From NCBI GenBank assembly GCA_001784175.1, contig MFPR01000017.1, positions 124,001 through 188,000 of the forward strand: a DNA stretch of 64,000 bases, read 5' to 3'. This document shows, one piece after another, positions 6,909 through 63,672 of this stretch. This DNA comes from Candidatus Lindowbacteria bacterium RIFCSPLOWO2_12_FULL_62_27 (lineage in GTDB: Bacteria > Lindowbacteria > 2-12-FULL-62-27). Each line of letters begins with the position of its first letter. The stretch's first letter is position 1. The position numbers and the translations under genes are program-made. The notes under the pieces were generated by a model. It had not been told where the DNA came from and made no database searches. It saw nothing but the letters and a program-made list of their open reading frames with translations.

Positions 6909-6937
6909 TTGACATCTCACCGGCCGTAGCCTACCCT
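6909..6937 (+). promoter_or_regulatory. Leaderless-type promoter of mutS
   Basis: A perfect TTGACA (6909-6914), 17-base spacer and TACCCT (6932-6937) are followed by only ten bases before the mutS ATG. Transcription is predicted to begin about four bases before the start codon, leaving no room for a ribosome binding site, and none is present. Confidence 0.65.
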
Positions 6938-6947
6938 TGCCCCCGTC

Positions 6948-9533
6948 ATGGAGACTACGGGGGAAATACGGCTTCATAAATTAACGCCCCTCATCCGCCA
7001 GTACCAGTCGATCAAACGCGGCGTGGGCGACGCCATCCTCTTTTTCCGGCTCGGCGATTTCTACGAGATGTTTAACGAGGACGCCGTCGCCGCTTCCCAA
7101 CTCCTCGGACTTTATCTCACCAAAAAAAGCGCCGGGGCCGGAAACTCCGTGCCCCTCGCCGGCGTGCCCGTCCATTCGGCCGATTCCTACATCGCGCGGC
7201 TCGTCAAGGCCGGCCGCAAAGTCGCCATCTGCGAACAGGTCGACGCCGGCCGGGGCAAGGGACTCATGGACCGCGCTGTCATCCGGATCGTCACGCCCGG
7301 AACGCTCGTCGAGGAAAATCTCCTCGCGCCCAACCTCGACAACCGGCTTGCCGCCCTCGCATGGGCCGATGACCGCGTTGGGCTGGCGTGTGTCGACGTG
7401 TCCACCGGCGATTTCGAAGTCGGCGAGTGGCGCGCCGATTCCGACGCGCTGAAAAACGCCTTCGAGGCCCTCAGTCTCCGCGAACTCGTCCTGCCCGACG
7501 CCCCCGCGCCCGCCGGCGTCGAGGCGCTCGCGAACGCGGGCGTTCCGGCATGCCGCCGCCGCGCGGCCGGCCCCGACGAAGTCATCGAGACCCTGAACGC
7601 GCGGTTCGGGGCGGGCGTGGTAGAAGCCTCGGGCCTGCGGCGGCAGCCCGCGGCGATCCTCGCGGTTGGACTTGTTCTGCGTTATCTTGCGGAAACCAAA
7701 AGCGACCATCTCCCGTTGCGGTTTCCGAGAACTCTCTCGCGCGCTGGCGTCATGGACCTGGACGCGGCGACCGTTCGGAACCTCGAAATTCTCGCCGGTC
7801 TTTCCGGCGACGCGCAGGCGGGCCTCTGGCCGGTCATCGACCGCACCCGCACCGCGATGGGATCGCGGCTTCTCCGCCGCTGGCTCCTGGCGCCGCTCCG
7901 CGCGCCCGCCGGCATCCTCGCGCGGCAGGAGGTCGTGTCGGCGCTCGTCGATCAGCCCGACATTCTGGATCGCCTTCGCGAGGCGCTCGCCGGCATCGGC
8001 GACATGGAACGGATTCTCGCGCGGCTCGCCCGCCCGGCCACCGCTCGTGTCACGGACCTCCTCATGCTTCGAAGTTCCCTCGAATCCGCTCCATTAGCTG
8101 TGACGGAGCTGGGCCGTCTGCCGGAAACCGCTCAACAGATCCTGAGCCTCGACGATTTCCCCGACCCATCGCCCATCCGGCGCATCCTTGCGGACCGGCT
8201 GGCCGAAGCGCCCGGCGCGGTGCTGGGAGAGGGCAAGGTCATCAAGGCCGGCGTGCATCCGGAACTGGACGAGCTGCGCGACATCGTCGAAAACCAGAGA
8301 CTGCACCTCCTCAAATTCCAGGACACCGAACGCACCCGTTCCAACATTGCGTCCCTCAAGGTCAGCTACAACCGGATTTACGGCTATTACATCGAAATCT
8401 CCAAGTCGAACCTCGACTCGGTCCCGGCCGACTACATCCGAAAACAAACGCTCGTCAATGCCGAACGCTTCGTCACGCCCGACCTCAAGCGCTTCGAGGA
8501 AAAACTCCTCGCCGCCTCCGATCGCATCTCCCACATCGAACGCGAACTCTTCTCACAGCTCCTCTCCGACATCCTCCTGCAGGCCGAGCCGGTCCGAAAG
8601 GCGGCCGAGCTTCTGGCCCGCGCCGATGCGCTGGCGGCCCTCGCCGAAACCGCGCGCCGCGAGCGCTTCGTCCGGCCGCAACTCACGGAAGACGACGTGC
8701 TCGAGATTCACGAAGGCCGTCATCCGGTCGTCGAACGGTTCTGTCCGGACGGATTCGTCCCCAACGACACGCTCCTCACGCCTGACCGACGGCTCGCCAT
8801 CGTCACCGGCCCCAACATGGCCGGCAAATCCACCTTTATCCGCCAGACCGCCGTCCTCACGCTCCTCGCGCAGATCGGCTCCTTCGTCCCCGCCAAAGCC
8901 ATGCGATGGCGGCCCGTCGACCGCATCTTCACCCGCATCGGCGCTTCGGACGACCTCTCCCGCGGCCAGAGCACCTTCTTCGTTGAAATGTCCGAAACCG
9001 CCGCCATCCTCCGCCAGGCCACCCGCGACTCCCTCATCCTTCTCGACGAAATCGGGCGCGGCACCAGCACCTACGACGGCCTCTCCATCGCATGGGCCGT
9101 CGCCGAACACATCGCGACCTCGCTCCAGGCCAAGACCCTCTTCGCGACGCACTACCACGAACTCGCCGACATCGCCGGACAACAGGGCGTCCACACGCTT
9201 ACGGTTCTCGTCCGCGAATGGGAGGGCCGCGTGGTTTTCCTGCGCAAGGTAACCGACGGCGCCTCCGACCGCAGTTTCGGGATTGCCGTCGCGGACCTCG
9301 CGGGCCTGCCGCGGTCCGTCCTCGAGCGCGCGCGCGCGCTTCTCACGCAACTGGAGTCCGCCTCGCAGACCCGCCGGCCGGCCGCGCCGGGCCAGGAGGA
9401 TCTGTTCACCGCCCCGGCCGCGCCCGACCCGCATTCCGAATGGAAATCGCGGATCCGACAAATGCCGCTCGACCGCATGACCCCGATCGAAGTTGTGTCC
9501 GAGATCGCCCGGTGGCAGAAGGAAATCCAGTGA
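6948..9533 (+). CDS. mutS: DNA mismatch repair protein MutS
   Basis: 861 residues, a normal MutS length. MutS recognises base mismatches and recruits MutL. The mismatch-binding motif is visible as FFRLGDFYEMF (the Phe-X-Glu wedge is within GDFYEMF), followed by connector, lever and clamp domains. The ABC-type ATPase has Walker A GPNMAGKSTFIRQ, a signature region and Walker B LILLDEIGRGTSTYDG. The stop overlaps the mutL GTG by three bases (GTGA), so the two partners are coupled. The ATG follows a strong promoter at short distance. Confidence 0.97.
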   Translation: METTGEIRLHKLTPLIRQYQSIKRGVGDAILFFRLGDFYEMFNEDAVAASQLLGLYLTKKSAGAGNSVPLAGVPVHSADSYIARLVKAGRKVAICEQVDAGRGKGLMDRAVIRIVTPGTLVEENLLAPNLDNRLAALAWADDRVGLACVDVSTGDFEVGEWRADSDALKNAFEALSLRELVLPDAPAPAGVEALANAGVPACRRRAAGPDEVIETLNARFGAGVVEASGLRRQPAAILAVGLVLRYLAETKSDHLPLRFPRTLSRAGVMDLDAATVRNLEILAGLSGDAQAGLWPVIDRTRTAMGSRLLRRWLLAPLRAPAGILARQEVVSALVDQPDILDRLREALAGIGDMERILARLARPATARVTDLLMLRSSLESAPLAVTELGRLPETAQQILSLDDFPDPSPIRRILADRLAEAPGAVLGEGKVIKAGVHPELDELRDIVENQRLHLLKFQDTERTRSNIASLKVSYNRIYGYYIEISKSNLDSVPADYIRKQTLVNAERFVTPDLKRFEEKLLAASDRISHIERELFSQLLSDILLQAEPVRKAAELLARADALAALAETARRERFVRPQLTEDDVLEIHEGRHPVVERFCPDGFVPNDTLLTPDRRLAIVTGPNMAGKSTFIRQTAVLTLLAQIGSFVPAKAMRWRPVDRIFTRIGASDDLSRGQSTFFVEMSETAAILRQATRDSLILLDEIGRGTSTYDGLSIAWAVAEHIATSLQAKTLFATHYHELADIAGQQGVHTLTVLVREWEGRVVFLRKVTDGASDRSFGIAVADLAGLPRSVLERARALLTQLESASQTRRPAAPGQEDLFTAPAAPDPHSEWKSRIRQMPLDRMTPIEVVSEIARWQKEIQ

Positions 9534-12231: not shown

Positions 12232-12782
12232 TTCTGTTGACCCTGATCAGCATATTCTGTGTCGTGGTCTATGATTCGGTCGTCGCCGTTCCCGACGGAT
12301 ATGTCGGTGTGACCACCTGCCGGCTGCGGCGTTTCGGACCCATCGCCACGGCCCCGCGGACGCTGGACCCGGGCCTCCATCTTTCGCTTCCGCTCCTGAC
12401 TCGGCTCAGTCTCTACAACACGCGCATCCAGATGCTCGTCCTCCAGGTGCCGGTCGGGGAAGGAAAGATCGTGCAGATGACCGGACAGGTCCGGATCGAG
12501 CCGGACTCGGCGGTGATTCTCCACCAAAAGCGCGGCCCCAACTACCTTGCGGAGGTCCGGCCGTGGCTCACGGAGATTTTCAAGGGGAAAATCTCCGAAG
12601 CCCACGGGCGTCTCGGATCTCCGGAAATCCGGCAGGACATCCTCGACACGGTCGAACAGGCCCTCGCCGCCGACGGCATCGCCTTTGACCGGCCGCCCTT
12701 CCTGACCCTTCTTGAGCATCTCTCTCTCAACCTCGACCCGCCAACCGAAGAGGAGTCGGATACCGACGAAGACGCGGATTGA
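12216..12782 (+). CDS. SPFH/Band-7 membrane protein, HflC-like
   Basis: 188 residues. The TTG at 12216 is fixed by AAGGAG at 12203-12208 seven or eight bases upstream. An N-terminal anchor (about 1-22) is followed by VVAVPDGYVGVTTCRLRRFG, LDPGLHLSLPLLTRLSLYNTRIQML and a helical SPFH core, closely paralleling HflC. The family forms oligomeric membrane cages that restrain the FtsH protease. It is short compared with HflC (about 330), lacking most of the C-terminal coiled coil, and ends in an acidic tail. It sits between miaA and hflX, where Enterobacteria have hfq and then hflX-hflK-hflC, supporting an HflC-type role. Confidence 0.75.
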   Translation: MRGFLILLTLISIFCVVVYDSVVAVPDGYVGVTTCRLRRFGPIATAPRTLDPGLHLSLPLLTRLSLYNTRIQMLVLQVPVGEGKIVQMTGQVRIEPDSAVILHQKRGPNYLAEVRPWLTEIFKGKISEAHGRLGSPEIRQDILDTVEQALAADGIAFDRPPFLTLLEHLSLNLDPPTEEESDTDEDAD

Positions 12783-13899: not shown

Positions 13900-14372
13900 G
13901 AAAAAAAATGGCGTCGCCGAAAAAATCACCGGCGGCGACGGGAGGCGGGATCGCAAAAGACATCCGCGACTTCATGCACCGGCACCGGCTGGACGAGCTC
14001 GTGATTGAAAAGGATCGGGAAAAAATCGAAGTCCGGCTCGGGCCGGCCGTTCCGCTTGCGCCGGCGCACCCGGCCGCCGAATCGCGCGCGCCGGCGCCGG
14101 CCGCGCTCGCCCCGACCCCTGCGCCTTCCACCAACCTCCAGATCCGCGCGCCCATGGCCGGAACCTTCTATCGCTCCTCGTCGCCGAACGCCGACCCCTA
14201 CGTCAAGGAGGGCGACGCGGTCACGCCGGCGACCACCGTCTGTGTGATCGAGGCGATGAAGGTCATGAACGAAATCAAGGCGGATGTCGCCGGCAAGGTC
14301 GTCAAAATTTGCGTCGAAAACGCCGCTCAGATCGAGTCCGGCGCCCTGCTCTTCGAACTTTCTCCGGCCTGA
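13896..14372 (+). CDS. accB: Biotin carboxyl carrier protein of acetyl-CoA carboxylase
   Basis: 158 residues from GTG 13896 (GTGA overlap with hflX) or ATG 13908. A helical N-terminus is followed by an alanine/proline hinge (about 50-80) and a biotinyl domain with EAMKVMN, where the lysine is the biotinylation site. It carries CO2 between biotin carboxylase and carboxyltransferase in fatty-acid synthesis. The accC gene that usually follows accB is absent here; a protease gene follows instead, so the partner must be encoded elsewhere. Confidence 0.92.
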   Translation: MRKKMASPKKSPAATGGGIAKDIRDFMHRHRLDELVIEKDREKIEVRLGPAVPLAPAHPAAESRAPAPAALAPTPAPSTNLQIRAPMAGTFYRSSSPNADPYVKEGDAVTPATTVCVIEAMKVMNEIKADVAGKVVKICVENAAQIESGALLFELSPA

Positions 14373-14386
14373 CGCGACCAAATCCG

Positions 14387-14433
14387 TTGAGAATTGCTCA
14401 TTGGTTCATTGGTTCATTGGTTTATTCTCAGTT
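14387..14433 (+). repeat. Octamer (TTCATTG-type) repeat, copy B
   Basis: GCTCATTG-GTTCATTG-GTTCATTG-GTTTATTC: four period-8 units, matching 6090-6136 at about 37 of 47 positions, including the flanking TTGMGAATTG and TCAGTT. It encodes the signal-peptide core of the downstream protease. Confidence 0.75.
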
Positions 14434-15772: not shown

Positions 15773-15806
15773 GCGCGCAGACCAAAATTCAAGGAGGCAA
15801 TACCAC

Positions 15807-16391: not shown

Positions 16392-16436
16392 AAAAAGAAA
16401 GAATTTGGGAAATGGGTCGGTAAACAGGGGAAAACA

Positions 16437-23397: not shown

Positions 23398-23427
23398 TTG
23401 TCCGCGTCTCTCCGGATATGGCACAGT
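23398..23427 (+). promoter_or_regulatory. Possible leaderless promoter of the cyclase gene
   Basis: TTGTCC (23398-23403), an 18-base spacer and CACAGT (23422-23427) end seven bases before the ATG at 23435. The -10 is weak, but the spacing repeats the pattern seen at mutS, cca and ppx. Confidence 0.3.
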
Positions 23428-27959: not shown

Positions 27960-27989
27960 TTGACAAGTCTTTCGCCGCCGTCTTAGGCT
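27960..27989 (+). promoter_or_regulatory. Leaderless-type promoter of cca
   Basis: TTGACA (27960-27965), an 18-base spacer and TAGGCT (27984-27989) end nine bases before the cca ATG. The predicted transcription start is within about three bases of the start codon, and no ribosome binding site is present. Confidence 0.65.
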
Positions 27990-27998
27990 CTCTTAGAT

Positions 27999-29399
27999 AT
28001 GGAAGCGAACAAACTGCTGGACTGTCTGAAACCGCTTTTGCCTCCCGGAAGTTTTCTCGCGGGGGGCGCCGTGCGTGACATGCTGCTGGGCGTCGAACCG
28101 AGGGACGTCGATGTCCTTGTCCCGGCCGATCCGATGGTCCTCGGCCGTACGATCGCGGAGCGCCTCGACGGGTTCTTCGTCCCGCTGGACGAATCGCGGC
28201 GGATCGCCCGCGTGGTCCTTCGCGGCGGCGACGACGTGGATCTTCTGCCCATCCCCTCGGGCGGCGTTCCCGAAAGCCTCGCGGAACGGGACTTCACCAT
28301 GAACGCGATCGCGCAGTCGCTCGACACAGGCGCGCTCGTGGATCCCTTCAATGGCCGGGAGGATTTGAAGAACAAAACGATCCGGCACGTCGCCGAAAAG
28401 AACCTGGAGGACGACCCGCTCCGGATCCTCCGCGCATGGCGGTTTCACGCCACCCTCGGATTTTCCATCGATCCGGCGCTTCTTGCGGCCATTCGACAAA
28501 AACACAACCGCATCTGGTCCGTCGCCCCGGAACGGATTGCCGAGGAGTGGTTTATCATCCTCGCCGCGCCCGCCGCCGGGCGAGCCGTCCGCGCCATGGC
28601 CGACGCCGGCACGCTGACCGCGCTCCTGCCGGAACTCCTGCCGATGCGTGGGTGTACCCAGAACGAGTTCCACCACCTCGACGTGTTCGATCACTCCCTC
28701 GCGGCAATCGATGTGGTCGATGACATCGCCGGCCGGCCGGAGCGGCAGTTCCCGCCGGAGGCGGCGCCGGTGGTCGCCGAGTACCTTGCGCGGACCCTCG
28801 TGGGCCGCCGGCCGCGCGTGGCGTACCTTCGATTCGCGGCCCTCCTCCACGACATCGAAAAACCGTCGGCCCGGTCGGTCGACCCGGACGGCCGGGTGCA
28901 TTTCTACGGACACGAAAAAACGGGAAGGGCGTCCGCCTCCGCGATCTGCGGGAAACTTCGACTCGCCAGGGACGAAAGCGATCTCGTCGCCCGGCTGGTC
29001 GCGCAGCACATGATCTTCGGGCCGGAACTCTTCGACGCGACGGCCGACCGCGACCGGTTTTTTTATAGAATCTTCCGCGACTTCGGAGGCGACGACGGCA
29101 TCGGCCTTCTGATCCTCTCCCTCGCCGACCGCATGGCCAGCCTGGGCCCGGCGGTGACGGGCGACTTCAACGAGAGCCACCGCCGGCTGGTCGTCGACGG
29201 CGTCGTCCGATACATTCAGGAAAAGGAGCGGGTGGTGCCGCCCAAGCTGCTGTCAGGCAATGACGTCATGACCGCCCTGAACCTTCCCCCCGGCCCGGCC
29301 GTCGGCGTGATCCTCGAACGCGTCCGGGAACTCCAGGCCGAAGGCAAAATCCGCAGCCGCGACGACGCCCTCCGCGCCCTGCCCTCGCTCCGCCCGTGA
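27999..29399 (+). CDS. tRNA nucleotidyltransferase / poly(A) polymerase family protein
   Basis: 466 residues. A class II nucleotidyltransferase head domain with LAGGAVRDMLLG and RDVDVLV (catalytic Asps), RDFTMNAIAQ, and DDPLRILRAWRFHA of the neck region, as in CCA-adding enzymes and poly(A) polymerases. A C-terminal HD domain (LRFAALLHDIEKP, YGHEKTG) is also present, giving a bacterial class II CCA enzyme with HD. It probably repairs or adds the tRNA 3' CCA; sequence alone cannot exclude a poly(A) polymerase role. Its stop overlaps the putA ATG (TGATG). Confidence 0.88.
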   Translation: MEANKLLDCLKPLLPPGSFLAGGAVRDMLLGVEPRDVDVLVPADPMVLGRTIAERLDGFFVPLDESRRIARVVLRGGDDVDLLPIPSGGVPESLAERDFTMNAIAQSLDTGALVDPFNGREDLKNKTIRHVAEKNLEDDPLRILRAWRFHATLGFSIDPALLAAIRQKHNRIWSVAPERIAEEWFIILAAPAAGRAVRAMADAGTLTALLPELLPMRGCTQNEFHHLDVFDHSLAAIDVVDDIAGRPERQFPPEAAPVVAEYLARTLVGRRPRVAYLRFAALLHDIEKPSARSVDPDGRVHFYGHEKTGRASASAICGKLRLARDESDLVARLVAQHMIFGPELFDATADRDRFFYRIFRDFGGDDGIGLLILSLADRMASLGPAVTGDFNESHRRLVVDGVVRYIQEKERVVPPKLLSGNDVMTALNLPPGPAVGVILERVRELQAEGKIRSRDDALRALPSLRP

Positions 29400-40771: not shown

Positions 40772-40800
40772 CTTATACATTACCGCGATGAATATTAGAA
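40772..40800 (-). promoter_or_regulatory. Putative leaderless promoter of the GYF_2/B-box gene
   Basis: On the minus strand TTCTAA (40800-40795), 17-base spacer, TATAAG (40777-40772); the ATG is eight bases on. It faces the promoter of ppx. Confidence 0.4.
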
Positions 40801-40810: not shown

Positions 40811-40839
40811 TTGCCCGACCGCGCGGCCAAAGATAGCTT
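40811..40839 (+). promoter_or_regulatory. Leaderless-type promoter of ppx
   Basis: TTGCCC (40811-40816), 17-base spacer, TAGCTT (40834-40839), and the ATG at 40848 after eight bases. No Shine-Dalgarno. This supports 40848 rather than the upstream in-frame ATG 40788. Confidence 0.6.
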
Positions 40840-40847: not shown

Positions 40848-41819
40848 ATGACACGAGAATTGCCGCCCGGCGTGGCGGCGATCGACCTTGGGACTAACAC
40901 GTTCCGCCTTGTTTCGCGCGGGGTGCAGGTGGTGGAGTATCCGCGGATCGGGCTTGGCGTGGACCGCACCGGCCGGATCGCGCCCGCGTCGGCCCGGCGC
41001 GGGATGGCGGCGCTCGCCGCGTTCGCCCGGCTTGTCCGCGCCCGCCGCCTGCGCGTCGTCGGCGTGGTTGGCACGAGCGCGCTGCGCGAGGCGGCCAACG
41101 GCCCGGCGTTTTGCTCAGCCGTCGAACGCCGCTTCGGCTGGCGCGTCGAGATCATTTCGGGCGAGGAAGAGGCGGCGCTCACCTTTGAAGGCGCCACCGC
41201 CACGCTGGACCTGCCCAAAAACCGGCGCGTCCTCATCTCCGATGTCGGCGGCGGGAGTACCGAACTTATCTGGGGAGAACCCCCCACCTCGATCATCCCC
41301 CACAAGGGGGGAGGAAGGAAACAGTATGCGTCCCTGAAACTCGGCTCCGTTCGCATGACCGAACGGTTCGGCACGGCCGGTCAGGTATCGACGGCCAGAC
41401 TTCGGGCGCTGCGCGAGGGCGTCCGCCGCGTCCTCCGGTCGAGCGGCGTGCCTTGGATGAAGGCCGGCTCAGTCGTCGGCGTCGGCGGGACCGCCACGAC
41501 CCTCGCCGCCATCCTGTATGGCGTCGATCCCTACGATGAGAAGCAGGTCCACGGCGCCCGCGTGCCGGCCGAGTCCCTCGATAAAATGGTCGAGGTGCTC
41601 GCCCGGATGACGCCGCGCGAGCGCCAGTTTTTGCCGAGCCTGCCGAAAGGCCGCGCCGACATCATCGTCGCGGGCGCCGCCATCCAGACCGAGATCGTCC
41701 GGCTGGCCGGCGCGTCCGAGATGATCGCATCCGATGCCGGCCTCCTCACCGGCCTCATCCTCCGGCGCGGCTCGCGCGGCCGACAGAAATCTCTTGCGCG
41801 GCGCGCCCAAAAAGTGTAG
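40848..41819 (+). CDS. Exopolyphosphatase / pppGpp phosphohydrolase family protein
   Basis: 323 residues from ATG 40848. Ppx/GppA fold of the sugar-kinase superfamily: AIDLGTNTFRLV, GVVGTSALREAANG, EIISGEEEAALTFEG, DVGGGSTELIWG and GVGGTATTLAA. The family hydrolyses polyphosphate or pppGpp. Residues near 145-158 (PPTSIIPHKGGGRK) are encoded by a palindromic repeat element present also at 44555-44594 (see repeats) and inserted in frame between the DVGGGSTEL strand and LKLGSVRMTE. A functional insertion is implied by the intact motifs around it. Confidence 0.88.
   Translation: MTRELPPGVAAIDLGTNTFRLVSRGVQVVEYPRIGLGVDRTGRIAPASARRGMAALAAFARLVRARRLRVVGVVGTSALREAANGPAFCSAVERRFGWRVEIISGEEEAALTFEGATATLDLPKNRRVLISDVGGGSTELIWGEPPTSIIPHKGGGRKQYASLKLGSVRMTERFGTAGQVSTARLRALREGVRRVLRSSGVPWMKAGSVVGVGGTATTLAAILYGVDPYDEKQVHGARVPAESLDKMVEVLARMTPRERQFLPSLPKGRADIIVAGAAIQTEIVRLAGASEMIASDAGLLTGLILRRGSRGRQKSLARRAQKV
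41279..41319 (+). repeat. Palindromic repeat element inside ppx
   Basis: Sequence with a CCCCCA...TCCCCCACAAGGGGGGA palindrome and an AGGAAGG tail. It is closely similar to 44555-44594. Here it is in frame and encodes about 13 residues absent from typical Ppx proteins. Confidence 0.65.
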
Positions 41820-41822
41820 GGT
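41794..41822 (+). promoter_or_regulatory. Leaderless-type promoter of alaC
   Basis: TTGCGC (41794-41799), 17-base spacer, TAGGGT (41817-41822), then seven bases to ATG 41830. The first three bases of the -10 are the ppx stop codon. Confidence 0.55.
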
Positions 41823-41829: not shown

Positions 41830-43116
41830 ATGCGGGGGAAAATCAAGATCGAATGGGCGCGCCGGATGGACCGGTTGCCGCCCTATCTCTTTGCGACCAT
41901 CAACGAGCTTCGCCACAAGATGCGCCAGGCCAACCGCGACGTCATTGACCTCGCCATGGGTAACCCCGACCGGCCGACGCCGCCGCACATCGTGAAAAAG
42001 ATGATCGAGGCCGTGTCCGACGGACGCAATCACCGCTACTCGGTCTCCAAAGGCATCTTCAATCTCCGTCGCGACGTGGCGATCTATTACAAGAACCGCT
42101 ACGGCGTTGAACTCAATCCCAATTCCGAAGTCGTCGCCTGCATCGGGTCCAAGGAGGGTATTTCCCACATGGCCCTCGCCATGCTCGGACCTGGCGACAC
42201 CGCCCTCGTGCCGTCGCCCTTTTTCCCCATCCACGTCTATACCGCCATCATCGCGGGCGCCAACGTCATCACGGTGCCCATGAACGACCCCCGCGCGCCT
42301 CACGCGGCCCATGAGAAGGGCGACGGATCGTTTCACGTCGACGGGTTCCTCGGGCGGCTGTCCATGGCGATGAAACAGCTCCACCCGACGCCGAAGATGC
42401 TCTATCTCAATTTCCCGCACAATCCGACCGCCTACGTGGTCGAGCCCGACTTCTACACCGAGGTCGTCAAGCTCGCCCGGAAGAACGGCATCTGCATCAT
42501 TCAGGACTTCGCCTACAAAGACATCGTGTTTGACGGCTATCGAAGCCCCAGCATCCTGGCGGTACCCGGCGCCAAGGACATCGCGGTCGAGTTCTTCACA
42601 CTCTCCAAGAGCTACAACATGGCCGGCTGGCGCATGGGCTTCTGCGTCGGAAACGAGAAAATGTGCTCGGCCTTGGCCAAAATCAAGGGATATTACGACT
42701 ACGGCCACTTCCAAGCCGTCCAGATCGCGGCCATCGTCGCGCTGCGTTCGCCCCAGGAGATCGTATCCGAGATCGCCAAAATATACGAACGGCGCCGCAA
42801 TGTCCTCATTGATGGCCTCAACCGCATCGGCTGGCCCTGCAGTCCGCCGAAGGCATCCATGTTTGCCTGGGTGCCCATGCCTCGCCAGTACCGCAAAATG
42901 GGATCGATGAAGTTCTCGCTCATGTTACTTGAAAAATCCGAAGTCGCAGTATCCCCCGGCAAGGGCTTCGGGGACGACGGTGAGGGCTTTCTGCGCATCG
43001 CACTTGTGGAAAACGAGCAGCGAATACGCCAGGCAGTTCGCCAGATTGACCACGTCCTGAACCTCCGGCCAAAGCCGGAGCCAGTCAAAAAATCGACTCG
43101 GTCGGCGAGTTCCTGA
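41830..43116 (+). CDS. alaC: Aminotransferase of the AlaC (glutamate-pyruvate) family
   Basis: 428 residues. A PLP-dependent class I/II aminotransferase with MDRLPPYLFATINEL, DLAMGNPDRPTPPHIVKKM, GSKEGISHMALAMLGPGD and the PLP-binding Lys in FFTLSKSYNMAGWRMGF, which match AlaC closely. It exchanges amino groups between glutamate and pyruvate; other LL-DAP aminotransferase-like specificities are possible. Its ATG follows a promoter embedded in the ppx stop, with no ribosome binding site. The C-terminus has a proline/lysine tail. Confidence 0.88.
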   Translation: MRGKIKIEWARRMDRLPPYLFATINELRHKMRQANRDVIDLAMGNPDRPTPPHIVKKMIEAVSDGRNHRYSVSKGIFNLRRDVAIYYKNRYGVELNPNSEVVACIGSKEGISHMALAMLGPGDTALVPSPFFPIHVYTAIIAGANVITVPMNDPRAPHAAHEKGDGSFHVDGFLGRLSMAMKQLHPTPKMLYLNFPHNPTAYVVEPDFYTEVVKLARKNGICIIQDFAYKDIVFDGYRSPSILAVPGAKDIAVEFFTLSKSYNMAGWRMGFCVGNEKMCSALAKIKGYYDYGHFQAVQIAAIVALRSPQEIVSEIAKIYERRRNVLIDGLNRIGWPCSPPKASMFAWVPMPRQYRKMGSMKFSLMLLEKSEVAVSPGKGFGDDGEGFLRIALVENEQRIRQAVRQIDHVLNLRPKPEPVKKSTRSASS

Positions 43117-49705: not shown

Positions 49706-49740
49706 GATTTTGGATTTTAGATTTTGGATTTTGGATTGGA
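49706..49740 (+). repeat. ATTTTGG-type tandem repeat between nuoA and nuoB
   Basis: Imperfect repeats of about 7-8 bases (GATTTTG/GATTTTA units) fill the short nuoA-nuoB gap. The GGAG that serves as ribosome binding site for nuoB is at its end. Confidence 0.65.
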
Positions 49741-49750
49741 GAAAACATAT

Positions 49751-50407
49751 ATGGGGGTCCTTGAGTATAAATTCGAAGAGAACATCATACTGACCAAGGT
49801 TGACTGGTTGCTCAACTGGGCGCGCAAGTCGAGTCTCTGGCCGATGACGTTTGGCCTCGCGTGTTGCGCCATCGAGATGATGGCCACCGGCGCGAGCCGC
49901 TTTGACCTCGACCGGTTCGGCGCCGGCGCGTTTCGCGCGACGCCCCGCCAGTCCGACCTCATGATCGTCGCCGGCACCGTCACGCTCAAGATGGCGCCTT
50001 GCGTGCGGCGGCTCTACGACCAGATGCCGGAACCGCGCTACGTCATCGCGATGGGCGCCTGCACCATCGGCGGCGGGCCTTATGCGCTGCACGGGTACCA
50101 CGTGCTGAAAGGCGTGGACCTCATCGTGCCCGTGGACGTCTACGTTCCAGGCTGCCCGCCCCGGCCCGAGGCGCTGATCGACGGCCTGCGAAAGCTTCAG
50201 GAGAAAGTCCAGAAGCAGGGCCTCCTGGCGCGGCCCGCGAAACCCGCCGCAAATGCCGGAGACCATGTCCTCGAGTACAGCCGGATGGACGGCGTGCGCC
50301 GGAAATGGGAGGAGACACAGAAGCACGGGGGTCTCACCCCGCAGGACGAGGAGGCGGCGGTCGAGGAACAGAAGAAGAAGGATAAAGAGGCCGTCGCCAA
50401 AGTTTAA
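49751..50407 (+). CDS. nuoB: NADH-quinone oxidoreductase subunit B
   Basis: 218 residues from ATG 49751; an upstream in-frame TTG at 49724 lies in repeats. Ligands of the tetranuclear N2 cluster are in [19 protein letters not shown] and [12 protein letters not shown]. NuoB passes electrons to quinone. The C-terminal 60 residues are a charged extension ([16 protein letters not shown]) beyond the core length. Confidence 0.95.
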
Positions 50408-53594: not shown

Positions 53595-54104
53595 ATGAGC
53601 GCTGAGAAGGTTGCGTTTTTCATATTGTCCGGCCTGACGCTCGGCGGCGGGCTGGCGATCCTGTTTTCCGTGCGGCTCATGCGCGCGGTCGTGTATCTGC
53701 TCGTGTCGCTCTTCGGCGTGGCCGGCTTGTACATCCTGCTGAACGCGGAGTTTCTGGCGGCGCTGCAGGTGTTGATCTACATCGGCGGAATCACCATCCT
53801 CATGGTGTTCGGCCTGATGCTCACCGGGCCGGGCCAGTTCGTGAACCCGGCCGAGAGCCGTTTGAAGGCCGTCGCCGCGGGCGTGTCGAGCCTGACGACC
53901 GCGATCGTGCTGCTCTTGATCGTCAAGAAGACGAAGTGGCCTGCGGGGACGCAGGCGCTTGCCGGTGACACCACGGCCGAGATCGGCCGGCTTCTTCTGA
54001 CCGACCACGTCTTCGCCTTCGAGATCGCCTCCGTGCTGCTTTTGGTGGTCCTGGTCGGCGTCGCGCTCTTTGTGCGTCTGGCCAGGGACGGCGGCAAACC
54101 ATGA
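53595..54104 (+). CDS. nuoJ: NADH-quinone oxidoreductase subunit J
   Basis: 169 residues with five membrane segments; VRLMRAVVYLLVSLFGVAGLY and ALQVLIYIGGITILMVFGLML are NuoJ/ND6 signatures. Overlaps nuoK (ATGA). Confidence 0.92.
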   Translation: MSAEKVAFFILSGLTLGGGLAILFSVRLMRAVVYLLVSLFGVAGLYILLNAEFLAALQVLIYIGGITILMVFGLMLTGPGQFVNPAESRLKAVAAGVSSLTTAIVLLLIVKKTKWPAGTQALAGDTTAEIGRLLLTDHVFAFEIASVLLLVVLVGVALFVRLARDGGKP

Positions 54105-54403
54105 TCACGCTTCAGGAGTATCTCTCGGTGGGCGCGCTGCTCTTTACGGTGGGGCTTCTGATTGTCCTGTTCCGGCAGAACGCGATTTCGATTCTGATGG
54201 GGATTGAACTCATGCTGAACGCGGCCAACATCAACTTCGTCGCGTTCTCAAACGCGCTCGGCGGGTTGACCGGCCAGGTGCTTGCGATTTTCGTGGTCGT
54301 GGCGGCGGCGGCGGAAGCGGCGGTGGCGATCGCGATCATCGTGCTTCTGTATCAAAACCTGGGCACCGTCGACGTCGAAAAGGCGAGGAACCTGAATGGC
54401 TGA
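54101..54403 (+). CDS. nuoK: NADH-quinone oxidoreductase subunit K
   Basis: 100 residues with three membrane segments. GIELMLNAANINFVAF holds the buried glutamate of NuoK/ND4L, needed for proton translocation. The next ATG lies inside its last eight bases. Confidence 0.94.
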   Translation: MITLQEYLSVGALLFTVGLLIVLFRQNAISILMGIELMLNAANINFVAFSNALGGLTGQVLAIFVVVAAAAEAAVAIAIIVLLYQNLGTVDVEKARNLNG

Positions 54404-56273
54404 GCTGTACGGGCCGTTGGGCCTGTCGTGCCTTTTGCACGGGATATTCTTTCCATATTTTATCGCCTTCGGCGTCATCATCCTGTTTTTGCGCCGCTGG
54501 GAGAAGGCGGCGATGGCCGTGTCGATCCTGGCGTCGTCGACGGTTCTCGCGTCCACCCTGATGCTTTTTGCGCGCCACCAGGGTCTGGCCGCCGGCCATG
54601 AGGGGGTTCTGCCGGCGGCGACCTACACACTGAGCTGGCTGTCCACGGACTCGGCGGCGTTTCAGTTCGGGTACATTCTGGATCCGCTGTCGGTGTTGAT
54701 GCTGATCGTCGTCGAAGTGGTGAGTTTTCTGGTGCAGGTTTATTCGATCGGCTACATGCACGGCGACCCGGGCCGCGCGCGGTTTTACGCGTATCTGTCG
54801 CTGTTCTCCGGCTCGATGACGGGCCTGGTCGTGTCGCCGAATCTTCTGCAGACCTACATTTTCTGGGAGCTGGTGGGGCTGTGTTCGTACTTGTTGATCG
54901 GTTTCTGGTGGCACAAGCCGGAGGCGGCGGCCGCCGCGAAGAAGGCCTTCGTGATGACGCGGTTCGGGGATTTGGGGCTGTTCATCGGGCTGCTCATGCT
55001 GCTCCACGCGAAGGGCAACGCGGCGTTCACCGATTTCGGAACGCTGGGACTGCCGGCCGGTCTCGCCACGTGCATTTCGCTCCTGATTTTTTGCGGCGTG
55101 ATCGGCAAAAGTTCGCAGTTCCCCCTGCACGTGTGGCTGCCGGACGCGATGGAGGGGCCGACGCCGGTGTCGGCCCTGATCCACGCGGCGACGATGGTGG
55201 TCGCCGGCGTGTATCTTCTGTCGCGCTCGGCGCCGCTGTTTCTGGCGTCCGAAACGGCGATGCTCGTGGTGCTCTCCTTCGGCGTCGTCACCGCCTTTGT
55301 GGCCGCGACCATGGCGTGCGTCCAGCGGGACATCAAGAAAGTGTGGGCCTACTCGACCGTGTCGCAGCTCGGATACATGGTGCTGGCCTTCGGCGCAGGC
55401 AGTTCGCAGGCGAGCATGTTTCATCTGTTCACGCACGCTTTTTACAAGGCGCTGCTTTTTCTGGGCGCCGGCAGTTTCATCCATCACGCCGGCTCCAACG
55501 ATCTCTTCGAGATCGCGCGCAAGGGCGGGCGCGGCATGCGGATCACGTTCTGGACGACGGTGATCGGCGCGCTGGCGCTGGCGGGCCTGCCGCCGTTTTC
55601 TGGATTTTTCAGCAAGGACGCGATCCTGGTGGCGGTGAAGGAGAATTGCCATCCGCTGTGGTACATCAGCGTGATGTTTGTCGGGTTTCTGACCGCGTAT
55701 TATTCGTTCCGGGTCGTGTTCATCCTTTTTCGAAAACAGGAGGCTGGTCCCGGAGTCGCGCACGGGCACGGCGGCCACGACTCGCCGTTGGTCATGACCG
55801 GCCCCTTGATGGTGCTTGCGCTGGCGACGATCTGCGTGGGCGCCTGGGAGGGGGGCTTCGGCCATTATCTGTCAGGCGCGCCGCATGGCGCTCTGCATTG
55901 GGACGTCGCGATCCCGGCGACGTTTCTTGCGCTGCTTGGCATAGTTCTGGCCGGCGCGTCGTTCGGCTCAGGCGGGCGGGAGGAGGGCGTATTGGACCGG
56001 CTGCCGGTCATGGAGATACCGCGGCGGAAATACTATCTGGATGATTTCTATTACTGGGTCACGCAGAAAATCGTGCTCGGATTTTCCTTCCTCTGCGCCT
56101 ACGTCGACCGGCACTTCGTGGACGGCGCGGTGAACGGCGTGGCCGACACCGTGCGCTGGATGGGCAGCCAGTGGTCGAAGATGCAGACCGGTCAGGTGCA
56201 GCAGTACCTGAACGTGTTGATCCTGATTTTTTCCATATTGGGCTTCGGCGTGTATCTGACGGTGAAATTCTGA
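54396..56273 (+). CDS. nuoL: NADH-quinone oxidoreductase subunit L
   Basis: 625 residues, antiporter-like (about 14-16 membrane segments). MHGDPGRARFYAYLSLFSGSM, WELVGLCSYLLIGFWW, SSQFPLHVWLPDAMEGPTPV and STVSQLGYMVLAFG are NuoL/ND5 motifs. It has the C-terminal lateral helix region. Overlaps nuoK by eight bases and shares TGATG with nuoM. Confidence 0.95.
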   Translation: MAELYGPLGLSCLLHGIFFPYFIAFGVIILFLRRWEKAAMAVSILASSTVLASTLMLFARHQGLAAGHEGVLPAATYTLSWLSTDSAAFQFGYILDPLSVLMLIVVEVVSFLVQVYSIGYMHGDPGRARFYAYLSLFSGSMTGLVVSPNLLQTYIFWELVGLCSYLLIGFWWHKPEAAAAAKKAFVMTRFGDLGLFIGLLMLLHAKGNAAFTDFGTLGLPAGLATCISLLIFCGVIGKSSQFPLHVWLPDAMEGPTPVSALIHAATMVVAGVYLLSRSAPLFLASETAMLVVLSFGVVTAFVAATMACVQRDIKKVWAYSTVSQLGYMVLAFGAGSSQASMFHLFTHAFYKALLFLGAGSFIHHAGSNDLFEIARKGGRGMRITFWTTVIGALALAGLPPFSGFFSKDAILVAVKENCHPLWYISVMFVGFLTAYYSFRVVFILFRKQEAGPGVAHGHGGHDSPLVMTGPLMVLALATICVGAWEGGFGHYLSGAPHGALHWDVAIPATFLALLGIVLAGASFGSGGREEGVLDRLPVMEIPRRKYYLDDFYYWVTQKIVLGFSFLCAYVDRHFVDGAVNGVADTVRWMGSQWSKMQTGQVQQYLNVLILIFSILGFGVYLTVKF

Positions 56274-57754
56274 TGGAGCACGGATTCGGCATTCTGACGT
56301 CGATGTGGGTGACGCCGATGATCGGCGTCCTCATTTTGATTTTCCTGCCATCGCGGTACGAGACCGGCGTGCGCCTGGTGTCGCTGCTCGCGGCCGCGAT
56401 CACGCTTGTGTCGTCGATTTACCTGTACATTCAATTTGACCCGCGCGGCGGATTTCAGTTCGAGGAGAACATGCTCTGGATCGACTATTTCGGCGTCCGC
56501 TATCACCACGGGGCCGATGGCCTGTCAGTGCCGTTGCTCCTCCTGACGTCGATCGTCATTTTCTGCGGGATTCTGTCATCGTGGGACGGGATCAAGCACC
56601 GGGTAAAGGAATTTCACATTCTCATGCTGCTGCTCGTGTCCGGCGTGTTCGGCGTATTCATCTCTCTGGACGCCGTGTTCTTTTTCATTTTCTACGAGAT
56701 CGCCGTTCTGCCGATGTATCTGCTGATCATTGTGTGGGGCTCCACGCGCAAGGAGTATTCCGGGATGAAACTGACGCTGTATCTTCTGTTCGGGTCGGTC
56801 TTCGTGCTCATCGGTCTGATCGCGGTCTACGTCCACACGGGCATGAAGACGACGGACCTGCTCGAGTTCAAGGCGCTTCTTGCGGCGAACCCGCCTTCGG
56901 ACCTTTTTGTGCGCACGATTTTTCCTATGATGTTCCTGGGATTCGGGATGCTGGCCGCGATCTGGCCCTTCCACACGTGGTCCCCGGACGGCCACGTCGC
57001 CGCGCCGACGGCGGCGTCGATGCTGCATGCCGGGGTCCTCATGAAACTCGGCGCGTTCGGCATCCTGCGTGTCGCCGTGTATCTTTTGCCGGAGGGTCTT
57101 CGATACTGGGCCGACATGATCGTGGCGCTGTCGCTGGTGAACATCATCTACGGCGCGTTCGTGGCGATGCACCAGACGGACCTCAAGTTCGTGATCGGAT
57201 ACTCGTCGGTGTCCCACATGGGGATCGTGATGTTCGGGATCGGGATGCTGAACTACGAAGGATTCGCCGGCGCGGCCTTCCAGATGTTCGCGCACGGCGT
57301 GATGACCGCGCTCTTTTTTGCCTGCGTCGGCGCGATCTACGACCGCGCGCACACGCGGCAGATTCACGCTTTCGGCGGGATCTACCGGCGGATGCCGATC
57401 GTCTGCGGCGCCTTTCTGTGCGGGGGCCTGGCGGGTCTGGGCCTGCCGGGCTTTGCGGGATTCGTCGCGGAGTTTCTGGTGTTCTGGGGCGCGTTCAAGG
57501 CGCATCCGGTGATCGCGTCGATCGCGGTGGTGGGCTTGGTGTTGACGGCGTTTTACGTGTTGCGCGTATTTCAGCGCGCGTTTTTCGGCGAGCCGAATCC
57601 GAAATGGGATGGTCTGACGGACTCGTCGGCGATTCAAAACACCGCCTACGCGATCCTGATCGGCACGATGCTGGTCTTCGGAATCTGGCCGCGCCTGTTT
57701 TTGGACATCGCGCAGGCTGACCTGAACCTGCTTCTTTCCGAGGTGCTCCGCTGA
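56273..57754 (+). CDS. nuoM: NADH-quinone oxidoreductase subunit M
   Basis: 493 residues. HHGADGLSVPLLLLTS, FFIFYEIAVLPMYLLIIVWG, WSPDGHVAAPTAASMLHAGV and SSVSHMGIVMFG are NuoM/ND4 signatures of the proton-pumping antiporter-like subunits. Starts at ATG 56273. Confidence 0.95.
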   Translation: MEHGFGILTSMWVTPMIGVLILIFLPSRYETGVRLVSLLAAAITLVSSIYLYIQFDPRGGFQFEENMLWIDYFGVRYHHGADGLSVPLLLLTSIVIFCGILSSWDGIKHRVKEFHILMLLLVSGVFGVFISLDAVFFFIFYEIAVLPMYLLIIVWGSTRKEYSGMKLTLYLLFGSVFVLIGLIAVYVHTGMKTTDLLEFKALLAANPPSDLFVRTIFPMMFLGFGMLAAIWPFHTWSPDGHVAAPTAASMLHAGVLMKLGAFGILRVAVYLLPEGLRYWADMIVALSLVNIIYGAFVAMHQTDLKFVIGYSSVSHMGIVMFGIGMLNYEGFAGAAFQMFAHGVMTALFFACVGAIYDRAHTRQIHAFGGIYRRMPIVCGAFLCGGLAGLGLPGFAGFVAEFLVFWGAFKAHPVIASIAVVGLVLTAFYVLRVFQRAFFGEPNPKWDGLTDSSAIQNTAYAILIGTMLVFGIWPRLFLDIAQADLNLLLSEVLR

Positions 57755-57768
57755 TCTCGTGGTCGCGC

Positions 57769-59211
57769 GTGATCGACGTCGCGCCGGAGGCGTACGTTCT
57801 GGGCCTGGCGGTCTTCTGGCTGATCGTGTCGGTGGTGCGGCCCGGCCGGGATTGCACGTGGCTGGCGATCGTTCTGGGTCTGGTCGGGATCTGGATCACG
57901 TGGGAGTCGTCGTTTCGATTCGGCGTCATGTCGCCGCAGATCCGTTTCTATCAGGCGTATCGCGTGGACCTCTTCTCGCAGGGATTCAAGCTGCTTCTCA
58001 TGATCGGCTACGTCCTCATTCTGAACCTCCACAAGAGCGACCGGTCGCTCGTGAAGCGCTCGCAGGCCGAGTATCAGTTTCTGCTGGCGGCCGCGCTTTT
58101 CGGGATGATGATGCTGACGAGCGTCTACGACCTGTTGGTGTTGTATCTGGCGATGGAGACGACGTCGTACAGTTTGTACGTGCTGTGCGTTCTGCGGCGG
58201 CGGGTGACTGAATCGACGGAGGCGGGCCTGAAATATGTGCTGATCGGCGCGGTGTCCTCGGCCGTCATGCTGTTCGGCATCAGTTATCTCTACGGCCTGA
58301 CCGGCACGACCTCCATCCCCGGCGTCATGTCGAGGTCGGCGGACCTGGTGAACACGCCGGGCTTTGTCCTCGGGATGTTTCTTCTGTTCTCCGGTCTCTT
58401 TTTCAAACTCGCGGCCTTTCCGTTCCATTTCTGGGCCCCGGACGTGTACGAAGGGACCAGCAACCAGGTGGCGGCGTACTTGGGGACGGTGTCGAAAGTC
58501 GCCGCGACCGCGTTCATTTTGCGCGTGGTGTCGATGATGCCGAAGGCCGCCGAGGTGATGAACGTCGCGCTGTACGTGGTGGCGATTGCGTCGATGACCT
58601 ACGGCAATTTCGTCGCGATCCGTCAGACGGACATGAAGCGGATGCTGGCCTATTCGGGCATCGGCCACATCGGCTACCTCATGGTCGGGGTCCTGGCGGC
58701 GATCAACATGGGCGAGTCCGGCTACACCGCGACGATCTACTACACGGGCATGTACATGATCATGAACTTCGCCGCGTTCATGGTGGTCCACGCCTGCGTC
58801 GACGAGTCGGGCCGCGCCCTCATCCGGAACTTCAACGACCTGTACCGCCGCTCGCCGCTTCTGTGCGCGACGCTGGTGGTCTCGATGTTCACGCTGGGCG
58901 GCATTCCGCCGATGGCGGGATTTTTCGGCAAGCTCTATCTCTTCATGACCGCTTTTAAGGGCGGATTCGTGTGGCTGGTGGTGGTGGGGCTCTTGAACAG
59001 TTTCGTTTCCCTTTATTATTATCTGCGCGTCTGCAAGGCCGCGTTCATGGATCCGCCGGCGGCGCCGATGCCGGAGATCCGGCTGGAGCCGCGCCGGGCG
59101 GCGCTGTGCATCATTCTGATCGCCTACATGGTCCTGTTCGGTTTCTTCTCCAACGCGGTCGACAACTACGCCGCGCTGGCCCGCTCTCTCTTGGGACCCA
59201 TCGGCGTTTAA
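57769..59211 (+). CDS. nuoN: NADH-quinone oxidoreductase subunit N
   Basis: 480 residues from GTG 57769. YLAMETTSYSLYVLCVLRR, FHFWAPDVYEGTSNQVAAYL and YSGIGHIGYLMVGV are NuoN/ND2 signatures. It completes the 11-gene core of complex I. No nuoE, F or G follows. Confidence 0.95.
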   Translation: MIDVAPEAYVLGLAVFWLIVSVVRPGRDCTWLAIVLGLVGIWITWESSFRFGVMSPQIRFYQAYRVDLFSQGFKLLLMIGYVLILNLHKSDRSLVKRSQAEYQFLLAAALFGMMMLTSVYDLLVLYLAMETTSYSLYVLCVLRRRVTESTEAGLKYVLIGAVSSAVMLFGISYLYGLTGTTSIPGVMSRSADLVNTPGFVLGMFLLFSGLFFKLAAFPFHFWAPDVYEGTSNQVAAYLGTVSKVAATAFILRVVSMMPKAAEVMNVALYVVAIASMTYGNFVAIRQTDMKRMLAYSGIGHIGYLMVGVLAAINMGESGYTATIYYTGMYMIMNFAAFMVVHACVDESGRALIRNFNDLYRRSPLLCATLVVSMFTLGGIPPMAGFFGKLYLFMTAFKGGFVWLVVVGLLNSFVSLYYYLRVCKAAFMDPPAAPMPEIRLEPRRAALCIILIAYMVLFGFFSNAVDNYAALARSLLGPIGV

Positions 59212-59224
59212 TTTTCCTTTGTGG

Positions 59225-59244
59225 CGCCCGCCGCTCGGCGGGCG
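59225..59244 (+). terminator. GC hairpin after nuoN
   Basis: CGCCCGCCG and CGGCGGGCG pair perfectly across two bases, 14 bases after the nuoN stop. No U-tract follows, so termination would be weak or Rho-assisted. Confidence 0.45.
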
Positions 59245-59271
59245 ATCAAGTGCGATTCGGGGGGACGTCGC

Positions 59272-60009
59272 ATGGACTGGATAACGGATCCGCAGGCTTG
59301 GATCGGCCTGGTCACACTCACGGCGCTCGAAGTGGTCCTCGGCATCGACAACATCATTTTCATCTCGATTTTGTCGTCGAAACTGCCGGAACACCGGCAA
59401 CCGCGCGCGCGAAAGGTGGGCCTGGCGATGGCGATGCTGACGCGGATCGGGCTTTTGCTGTCGCTGACGTGGATGTCGCGCCTGACGGCGCCGCTGTTCG
59501 GCGTGTTCGGCCATCCTTTCTCGGGGCGGGACATGATTTTGATTCTGGGCGGGATTTTCCTGCTGGCGAAAAGCACGCATGAGATTCATCAGAAGCTGGA
59601 GGGCGAGGAGGGCGTGGCGTCGGCGCGGGTGGCACCGGCGTTTTGGGCCGTGATTGTCCAGATCATGCTTCTGGACATCGTGTTTTCGCTCGACTCGGTG
59701 ATCACGGCCGTCGGGATGATCAATCAGATCCCGATCATGGTCGCGGCGATTGTGATCTCCGTCGGATTCATGATGTTTTTCGCGGACCCGATCAACGTGT
59801 TCGTGAACCGGCATCCGACGGTGAAGATGCTCGCGCTGAGTTTTCTGCTCATGATCGGGCTTCTCTTGGTCGCTGACGGGTTCGGGCATCACATTCCGAA
59901 GGGCTACGTGTATTTTGCGATGGCGTTTTCGGTCTTCGTCGAAATGCTGAACCTCCGGCTGAGAAGGGCCGTGTCGCCGGTGAAACTCCGCGACGCTTAC
60001 ACGCCCTAG
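59272..60009 (+). CDS. TerC-family integral membrane protein
   Basis: 245 residues from ATG 59272. Seven membrane segments; ALEVVLGIDNIIFISILSSK and LLDIVFSLDSVITAVGM are the paired acidic motifs of TerC, and FADPINVFVNRHPTVKMLALSFL follows. The family is linked to metal (manganese) efflux during protein secretion and to tellurite resistance; the substrate here is unproven. Confidence 0.9.
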   Translation: MDWITDPQAWIGLVTLTALEVVLGIDNIIFISILSSKLPEHRQPRARKVGLAMAMLTRIGLLLSLTWMSRLTAPLFGVFGHPFSGRDMILILGGIFLLAKSTHEIHQKLEGEEGVASARVAPAFWAVIVQIMLLDIVFSLDSVITAVGMINQIPIMVAAIVISVGFMMFFADPINVFVNRHPTVKMLALSFLLMIGLLLVADGFGHHIPKGYVYFAMAFSVFVEMLNLRLRRAVSPVKLRDAYTP

Positions 60010-60021
60010 CACCGCCGCCTG

Positions 60022-61155
60022 ATGCCGACCGTGTCCTGGCGCGCGTCGCCGCTCCTTGTGGTTGCGGGATTCGCGCTGTCGGGGGTTCTGACGGGGGCGC
60101 TTTTGCAGACGGACGTGATCGCGTATGAGCGGACCTTCGGGCTGAACCACGCGCAGGTATCGTTCTGGCTGAGTTTTTTTTCGCTGCTCACGGCCATCGG
60201 CGGCACCGCCGCTTCCTGCGTGTCCGACCGGTTGGGCGCGGGCCGGATTTATCGCGGAAGCCTGCTCCTGTCGGGGCTGGGACTTCTCGCGTTTTCCCGG
60301 GGCACCGAGCCTTGGATACTCGCCGGCGTTGTCACCGGGGGCCTCGGAATGGGCGGGCTGGTGGTGGGAAATATTCTTGTATCTCAAGGCGAGAGCGCCG
60401 CGCCGAACCGGGCGCTGAACCGGCTGCACGCGGCGCACAGTCTCGCGCGCCTGGCGGGCGTTCTTCTGTCGATGGCGGTTCTGGCCATGTCCTGGCAGAC
60501 GAGCTATGCGGTGCTGGGCGCCGTTTTTTGTTGCCTTGCGGCGCTGTACTGCGCTCCGGGGTTCCAGACGGCGGCGCCCGTTTCGCCCAACAGTCCGGCC
60601 GGCGGCGGTATTTCGAAATTGCCGCTCTCGTCGATCGCTCTTGGATTTTTCGTGTACATGACGGCCGAAATGATTTTGATCACGTGGCTTCCGGCCTACC
60701 TCGAACGCGACCGGCAGTGGGGGAGCCTCGCGTCCAAGTCTGCTTATGGCGTGTTTCTCGCGGGCATGATTGCCGGCCGCATGATGTGCGCGGGCCGCTG
60801 GCCGGAAGAGCTGACGTCGTCGTCGTGTGCGGTGCTGGCGGCGGCGCACGCGGCGGCCATCGCCCTGTTTATTTTTTTGCCGAACCCGGCGGCGGCCCAC
60901 GTTGCGCTGGCGGTGGCGGGTTTCTGTGAAGGCCCCGGCTGGCCGTCGCTGTATGCCTACGCGATCCGCCGATCGAGAGGCGCGGAGGGTAAGGTCACCG
61001 GCGTGATTTATGTCGCCGTCTGTTCGGGCATCCTCGTGTCGACCGCCGGGAGCGGCGTTCTGGCGCAACGCGCGGGGTTGGAGAGTGTCTTCTACGTCGT
61101 CGGCGTTGCCCACGCGGCGTTCAGCCTCATTTTTCTGAATCTGCTCAGGCGGTGA
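60022..61155 (+). CDS. Major facilitator superfamily transporter
   Basis: 377 residues with about 11-12 hydrophobic segments and glycine-rich motifs (SLLTAIGGTAASCVSDRLGAGR as the A-like loop). Fold typical of MFS. No substrate can be inferred. It overlaps the next gene by four bases (GTGA), so the two may act together. Confidence 0.82.
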   Translation: MPTVSWRASPLLVVAGFALSGVLTGALLQTDVIAYERTFGLNHAQVSFWLSFFSLLTAIGGTAASCVSDRLGAGRIYRGSLLLSGLGLLAFSRGTEPWILAGVVTGGLGMGGLVVGNILVSQGESAAPNRALNRLHAAHSLARLAGVLLSMAVLAMSWQTSYAVLGAVFCCLAALYCAPGFQTAAPVSPNSPAGGGISKLPLSSIALGFFVYMTAEMILITWLPAYLERDRQWGSLASKSAYGVFLAGMIAGRMMCAGRWPEELTSSSCAVLAAAHAAAIALFIFLPNPAAAHVALAVAGFCEGPGWPSLYAYAIRRSRGAEGKVTGVIYVAVCSGILVSTAGSGVLAQRAGLESVFYVVGVAHAAFSLIFLNLLRR

Positions 61156-62726: not shown

Positions 62727-62767
62727 GTCAAAAAGTCAAGACCGGCACTTTTCTCCTTCGGACGATC

Positions 62768-63637
62768 TCAGCGGCTGCTGTAGCGGCGTTCCAGCTCGTA
62801 AAACCGGTCGAGGTCCACCATGGCGTGGAAATCGGACCATGGAAGAAGCATGTCCAAATGATCGCGCGTGGTGCCCTTCTCGCGCAGGAGCCGGAAGACG
62901 TCGGAATAGGCGCGGGCCGCCGCGTAGAGGGCGCTCAGCGGATGGACGACGAGATCGAATCCGATCTCGTGGAGTTCCTCGGGCGTCTGGAGCGGCGTTT
63001 TGCCTTTCTCGAGCATGTTGGCGACTTTGACGCCCGGGACCTCCCGGCCGATCGTTCTCATCTCGTCGACCGAGTGCGGCGCCTCGATGAAGGTCGCGTC
63101 CGCGCCCATCTCGTGCGCGCGCTGCGCCCGCCGGATGGCCTCGTCGAGGCCGAGCGGCTCGCGGGCGTCGGTGCGGGCGACGATGAAGAAATCGCCGGTC
63201 GCGCGGCCGTCGATGGCCGCCTGCAGTTTCGATTCGAATTCCTCCGGCGGGATGACTTCCTTGCCGGCCATGTGCCCGCATTTTTTGGGCCAGACCTGGT
63301 CTTCGAGAAACATGCCCGCAACCCCGGCTTGCTGGAGGCCGCGGACGGTGTGAATCACGTTCAGCGCGTTGCCGTATCCGGTATCGGCGTCGACGATGAG
63401 CGGCGTCGACGGTTCGGCTGCGCAGACCCGCCGCGCGACGTCGATCATTTCTGTGGCGGTGAGGAGCCCGAAATCGGGCGAGGCGAGGCGCGTGGCCGAC
63501 ATGCTGTATCCGGACGTGAAGATGACCTCAAATCCGGCGCGGACGGCGATCCGGGCGGTGAGGGGATCGAACACGCCGGGCATGAGAAGCGGCTGCCCGG
63601 TCTGGAGTCTCTGCCGGATTCGCTCCGCGAGCGTCAT
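62768..63637 (-). CDS. Isocitrate lyase / PEP mutase superfamily enzyme (2-methylisocitrate-lyase-like)
   Basis: 289 residues. LLMPGVFDPLTARIA, IVDADTGYGNALNV (metal-binding Asp) and KKCGHMAGKEVI (the catalytic KKCGH motif of (methyl)isocitrate lyases) place it with PrpB-like lyases and PEP mutase relatives. It cleaves or rearranges a 2-hydroxy-tricarboxylate; other members are oxaloacetate decarboxylases. Convergent with the LMF gene. Confidence 0.88.
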   Translation of the reverse strand: MTLAERIRQRLQTGQPLLMPGVFDPLTARIAVRAGFEVIFTSGYSMSATRLASPDFGLLTATEMIDVARRVCAAEPSTPLIVDADTGYGNALNVIHTVRGLQQAGVAGMFLEDQVWPKKCGHMAGKEVIPPEEFESKLQAAIDGRATGDFFIVARTDAREPLGLDEAIRRAQRAHEMGADATFIEAPHSVDEMRTIGREVPGVKVANMLEKGKTPLQTPEELHEIGFDLVVHPLSALYAAARAYSDVFRLLREKGTTRDHLDMLLPWSDFHAMVDLDRFYELERRYSSR

Positions 63638-63643
63638 GCGGAA

Positions 63644-63672
63644 ACGCTCGCTTAGAATGGGGGGAATGTCAA
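63644..63672 (-). promoter_or_regulatory. Putative leaderless promoter of the isocitrate-lyase-family gene
   Basis: On the minus strand a perfect TTGACA (63672-63667), 17-base spacer and GAGCGT (63649-63644), six bases before the ATG at 63637. The -10 is degenerate but keeps A at position 2 and T at position 6. Confidence 0.45.

Follow-up and report, generated by a model that had tools for sequence, protein, structure and literature searches.

Start-adjacent housekeeping promoters point to widespread leaderless mRNAs in Candidatus Lindowiibacteriota

We analysed a 64,000-nt stretch of DNA (the window; G000:C17:124001-188000) from the genome of Candidatus Lindowbacteria bacterium RIFCSPLOWO2_12_FULL_62_27 (G000; 4.39 Mb in 44 contigs). 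The initial annotation had described nine promoters in the window set only 6–10 nt before start codons, and the hexamers, spacers (17 or 18 bp) and distances of all nine are found in the sequence as written. Four of them fit TTG-17/18-TANNNT, and the other five fit looser patterns only. The four sites and their genes are as follows.

6909–6937, + strand: mutS promoter; TTGACA (6909–6914), 17 bp, TACCCT (6932–6937), 10 nt to ATG 6948
6948–9533, + strand: mutS, with Pfam MutS domains I–V
27960–27989, + strand: cca promoter; TTGACA, 18 bp, TAGGCT, 9 nt to ATG 27999
27999–29399, + strand: cca-type tRNA nucleotidyltransferase/polyA polymerase (PF01743, PF12627, HD)
40811–40839, + strand: ppx promoter; TTGCCC, 17 bp, TAGCTT, 8 nt to ATG 40848
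40848–41819, + strand: Ppx/GppA phosphatase (PF02541)
41794–41822, + strand: alaC promoter; TTGCGC, 17 bp, TAGGGT, 7 nt to ATG 41830
41830–43116, + strand: class I/II aminotransferase, alaC-like (PF00155)

The mutS start at ATG 6948 has no Shine–Dalgarno (SD) sequence, and an in-frame stop codon lies 18 nt upstream. The genes that had been named as SD-bearing (15807, 18347, 45298 and 37762) do carry GGAGG-type SDs. An Rfam search of the window returned no match. The five sites that fit looser patterns are weaker candidates.

63644–63672, − strand: promoter of a PEP-mutase/ICL-type lyase gene (PF13714), with a weak −10; TTGACA (63672–63667), 17 bp, GAGCGT (63649–63644), 6 nt to ATG 63637
2381–2409, + strand: weak candidate before a TolB-like gene; TTGCAT, 17 bp, TTGAAT, 6 nt to ATG 2416
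917–945, − strand: weak candidate before the 909 gene; TTGATT, 17 bp, GACAAT, 7 nt to GTG 909
40772–40800, − strand: weak candidate before a GYF_2 gene (PF14237); TTCTAA, 17 bp, TATAAG, 8 nt to ATG 40763
23398–23427, + strand: weak candidate before an adenylate/guanylate cyclase gene (PF00211); TTGTCC, 18 bp, CACAGT, 7 nt to ATG 23435

Pfam agrees with the gene identities proposed for mutS, cca, ppx, the aminotransferase, the lyase, the GYF_2 gene and the cyclase; Pfam searches with the TolB-like gene and with the 909 gene gave no match. The 909 candidate lies within an intergenic region (910–951) common to a divergent gene at 952 that has an SD-like AAGGAG. The GYF_2 candidate has no TTG and stands back to back with the ppx promoter, and the CACAGT of the cyclase is the weakest −10 among the nine. 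Where TTG is present at 17/18 bp, TANNNT at 6–10 nt is ~91–93% likely to be real, whereas the figure for looser −10s is only ~56–66%. This leaves the TolB-like, 909, lyase and cyclase candidates as possible promoters that are individually uncertain, with conservation helping the lyase.

Three other features of the window were observed. A long co-directional gene run with overlapping starts (54101–61155) resembles a respiratory complex I (nuo) operon. Similar short direct repeats, ATTG(G/C)TTCATTG, lie immediately upstream of two genes (6075–6120 and 14370–14417), and a short tandem repeat, GGATTTTGGATTTT (49706–49751), abuts the gene at 49751, with an SD-like GGAG at the repeat end.

The genome had been taken as PVC-like. 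Its MutS is instead closest to that of Candidatus Lindowbacteria nzgw232 (67% identical), the remaining relatives reaching at most 45% and coming from mixed phyla, so placement among Planctomycetes, Verrucomicrobia and Chlamydiae is unsupported by this single marker and was dropped. Named Lindowbacteria are assigned in NCBI (by a sister record) to Candidatus Lindowiibacteriota, a separate candidate phylum. Two further members of the family were present among our comparison genomes, G001 and G002, the latter from a related genus.

To see how general the −10 position is, we sampled 1.26 Mb of the 4.39 Mb (29% of the genome), in stretches, with 1,053 genes. Starts were chosen by a self-trained dicodon gene caller from coding score and start-codon type, and because no upstream information was used the test is not circular. 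Genes that were divergent, or on the same strand as their neighbour with a gap of >40 nt, were classed as first in a transcription unit and the others as operon-internal. Of the 470 first genes, 73 had TANNNT 6–10 nt before the start, where the average of the other 5-nt blocks is 25.3 (~3-fold; binomial p ~7e-16); for the 579 operon-internal genes the count was 24, with 7.3 expected. The box is most frequent at a distance of exactly 6 nt; given the normal interval between a −10 and the transcription start, the A of the ATG would then be position +1. In an earlier subset, 60/351 genes carried the box, compared with a mean of 16.1 and a maximum of 25 over 200 dinucleotide shuffles. Divergent genes in the first 864 kb had it in 42/156 cases (shuffle mean 8.5, maximum 17), and those among them with an unambiguous start gave a stronger signal (12/24). 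No peak was seen at 4,748 in-frame internal ATGs. The same pipeline found no signal in 250 kb of Escherichia coli K-12 (6/142 versus 13.4 expected), and in 250 kb of the Deinococcus deserti plasmid it found the box at 19/140 first genes versus 4.5, with TTG at 17 bp in 0/19. The initial annotation had named a genome-wide lack of −10 box enrichment 6–10 nt before starts as an outcome that would refute it; over the 29% sampled, the box is enriched and the claim survives. The pattern proposed for that scan fared less well: TANNNT is enriched, but nAnnnT without a −35 requirement gave no enrichment beyond its TANNNT subset and was dropped as a test pattern.

The −10 boxes are paired with −35 elements. 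TTG lies exactly 17 bp before the −10 in 45 of the 97 candidates from both gene classes and at a spacing of 18 in 8, with counts of 0–4 at spacings 12–16 and 19–23, which marks these as true sigma-70 promoters. With background subtracted, roughly three quarters of true sites have a −35. The 45 sites share the consensus TTGAC(A)-17-TANNNT, in which TTG, TA and T were preselected and AC was not. An SD of at least 5 nt precedes 1% of the 97 candidates versus 25% of other genes, and ATG is the start codon in 94% versus 75%. The 3′ end of the 16S rRNA retains the anti-SD GGATCACCTCCTTTCT, so the SD is otherwise usable in this genome. Predicted leaders at the 53 strong sites are 0–4 nt long, and 27/53 are 0 nt. 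The −10 peak, the −35 at 17 bp, the absence of SDs and the ATG preference together support the original suggestion that leaderless mRNAs would be widespread here.

The arrangement is also conserved. Orthologues in G002 keep the −10 box at 7/10 leaderless genes versus 7/133 others (p = 1.7e-6); in G001 it is kept in 0/2, a sample too small for a conservation test of its own. The positional signal is present independently in each of these genomes. In nzgw232, mutS has the same architecture (TTGACA-17-TACGCT-10-ATG), and alaC reads TTGCGC-17-TAGCGT-8-ATG (L204) and TTGCGC-17-TAGGGT-8-ATG (L205) in two other genera, so that across three genera the −35, spacer length and −10 are constant while the spacer sequence varies. 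The G002 orthologue of the lyase retains TTGACA and has an A/T-rich −10 (ATAAAA) 7 nt before its ATG. In the G001 orthologue of cca, the −35 is lost and TATGCT stands 11 nt before the aligned ATG; a box at 11 nt, there and in some other orthologues, would give a leader of ~5 nt and counts against the leaderless reading.

Two candidates outside the window have features of their own. The spacer upstream of G000:C4:136323-136875 (−), a leaderless candidate, holds the palindrome ACACTGTCATATAACAGTGT, which in G002 reads ACACTGTCATATTACAGTGT, with the proteins only 50% identical; it looks like the operator of an autoregulated MerR-like or similar regulator. G000:C4:39105-39351 (+) encodes a short protein that by eye resembles a Phd/YefM-type antitoxin, and its leaderless promoter is near-identical in G002. 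Leaderless antitoxins are known in Mycobacterium tuberculosis.

Promoter position, −35/−10 pairing, SD absence, ATG preference and conservation were all observed directly, and from them we infer the transcription start and the translation mode: with a probability of about 0.9, a large minority of Lindowiibacteriota transcription units are leaderless and read from start-adjacent housekeeping promoters. Ordinary housekeeping sigma-factor promoters, with a TTGAC-like −35, a 17-bp spacer and a TANNNT −10, would set transcription to begin on the A of the start codon or no more than ~4 nt before it. An mRNA begun there would have neither a 5′ leader nor an SD, and its 5′-terminal AUG would be recognised directly, probably by 70S ribosomes, by analogy with Deinococcus and Actinobacteria. 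Such genes would coexist with ordinary SD-led genes, and transcripts with a leader might also arise from a promoter farther upstream.

The start-adjacent promoters might instead be secondary, with the bulk of the mRNA coming from upstream leadered promoters. Read-through of this kind is expected at the 13/53 strong sites that lie within apparent operons, but the other 40/53 precede first genes, and the −35 comes close to the consensus (TTGAC), which makes this unlikely. We consider it very unlikely that the promoters are normal and the starts misassigned, translation then beginning at an in-frame codon farther downstream that has an SD and gives an ordinary short leader. Start calling is error-prone in GC-rich genomes, and our caller did shift some starts (2470 instead of 2416). 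However, downstream in-frame starts preceded by an SD are not in excess (15% of strong candidates versus 11% of other genes), the 6-nt peak and the ATG preference belong to the called codon, divergent genes with unambiguous starts give the stronger signal, and the N-termini of MutS and the alaC product are conserved as far as the called start. Least probable of all, and refuted for the set, though it may hold for individual weak sites, is that TANNNT arises by chance or as a by-product of A+T-rich DNA before starts: reversed (TNNNAT) and reverse-complement patterns are also slightly raised there, but dinucleotide shuffles never match the observed count, and neither TTG at exactly 17 bp nor conservation between genera could come from base composition alone.

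For leaderless transcription from start-adjacent promoters, the excess over background amounts to ~65/1,053 genes (6%), a minimum estimate, since wrongly called starts and imperfect −10s escape the count, and to ~20–21% of divergent genes; the fraction is imprecise because many caller starts are uncertain. In a survey of leaderless genes by TANNNT position in 953 bacterial genomes (Zheng 2011, PMC3160421), the share was 13% in Acidobacteria, 16% in delta-Proteobacteria and 39% in Deinococcus-Thermus; our genome falls in the range of the first two and under the third. GeneMarkS-2 predicts leaderless transcription for 21.6% of bacterial species (PMC9581028). As in our candidates, TANNNT in Deinococcus-Thermus stands ~6–7 bp before the ORF, without an SD and alongside SD-led genes (PMC3160421, PMC12340547). 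The TANNNT analysis repeated for that phylum found most genes with a −10 motif to lack a −35 (Zhong 2025, PMC12340547), and the reported leaderless share is higher there (30–46%). Our genome thus departs from the −10-only Deinococcus type, in which the −35 is usually absent, since about half of its candidates have TTG at 17 bp. M. tuberculosis likewise has TANNNT −10s near start codons without SDs, but no conserved −35 (PMC3898074). The closest architectural match is Streptomyces coelicolor, where ~21% of genes are leaderless, a TANNNT −10 is joined by a −35 (NTGACC) and AUG is preferred (PMC4895711). That organism belongs to an unrelated phylum and has a less conserved −35, and its leaderless mRNAs are proven by transcription start site mapping, whereas ours are predicted. 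Because Streptomyces leaderless promoters have a −35, the combination is not unprecedented, and we dropped the complete −35 as a categorical novelty.

As an independent count, we compared TTGA-N19/20-TANNNT-N6-10-ATG with the same pattern at N16–20 across 145 bacterial genomes. By z, the source genome ranked first (153 vs 30), G002 second (104 vs 22) and G001 third (124 vs 42), the panel median ratio being 1.12; by ratio instead of z, the small-count G062 came first (16 vs 2) and the source genome second. The index requires a −35, so Deinococcus-like genomes are underrated by it. The next-highest excesses were in G041 (123 vs 60) and G127 (144 vs 78), from other families and possibly further leaderless-rich lineages.

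On balance we favour the view that Lindowiibacteriota are among the more heavily leaderless phyla, with a complete −35/−10 at roughly three quarters of true leaderless genes; in keeping both elements, these genes would have start codons adapted to sigma-70 promoters of full strength, in contrast to the −10-only promoters of Deinococcus and mycobacteria. The evidence supports a known mechanism in a new setting: a literature search for leaderless mRNAs in Lindowbacteria found no earlier report. Leaderless translation would thereby extend to a candidate phylum known from metagenomes alone, and its use can be measured in a metagenome-assembled genome without RNA. Start-codon annotation in such genomes would be wrong where tools rely on the SD alone. 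An intact −35 in the leaderless class would also uncouple leaderless genes from weak, −10-only promoters, two ideas that are usually tied.
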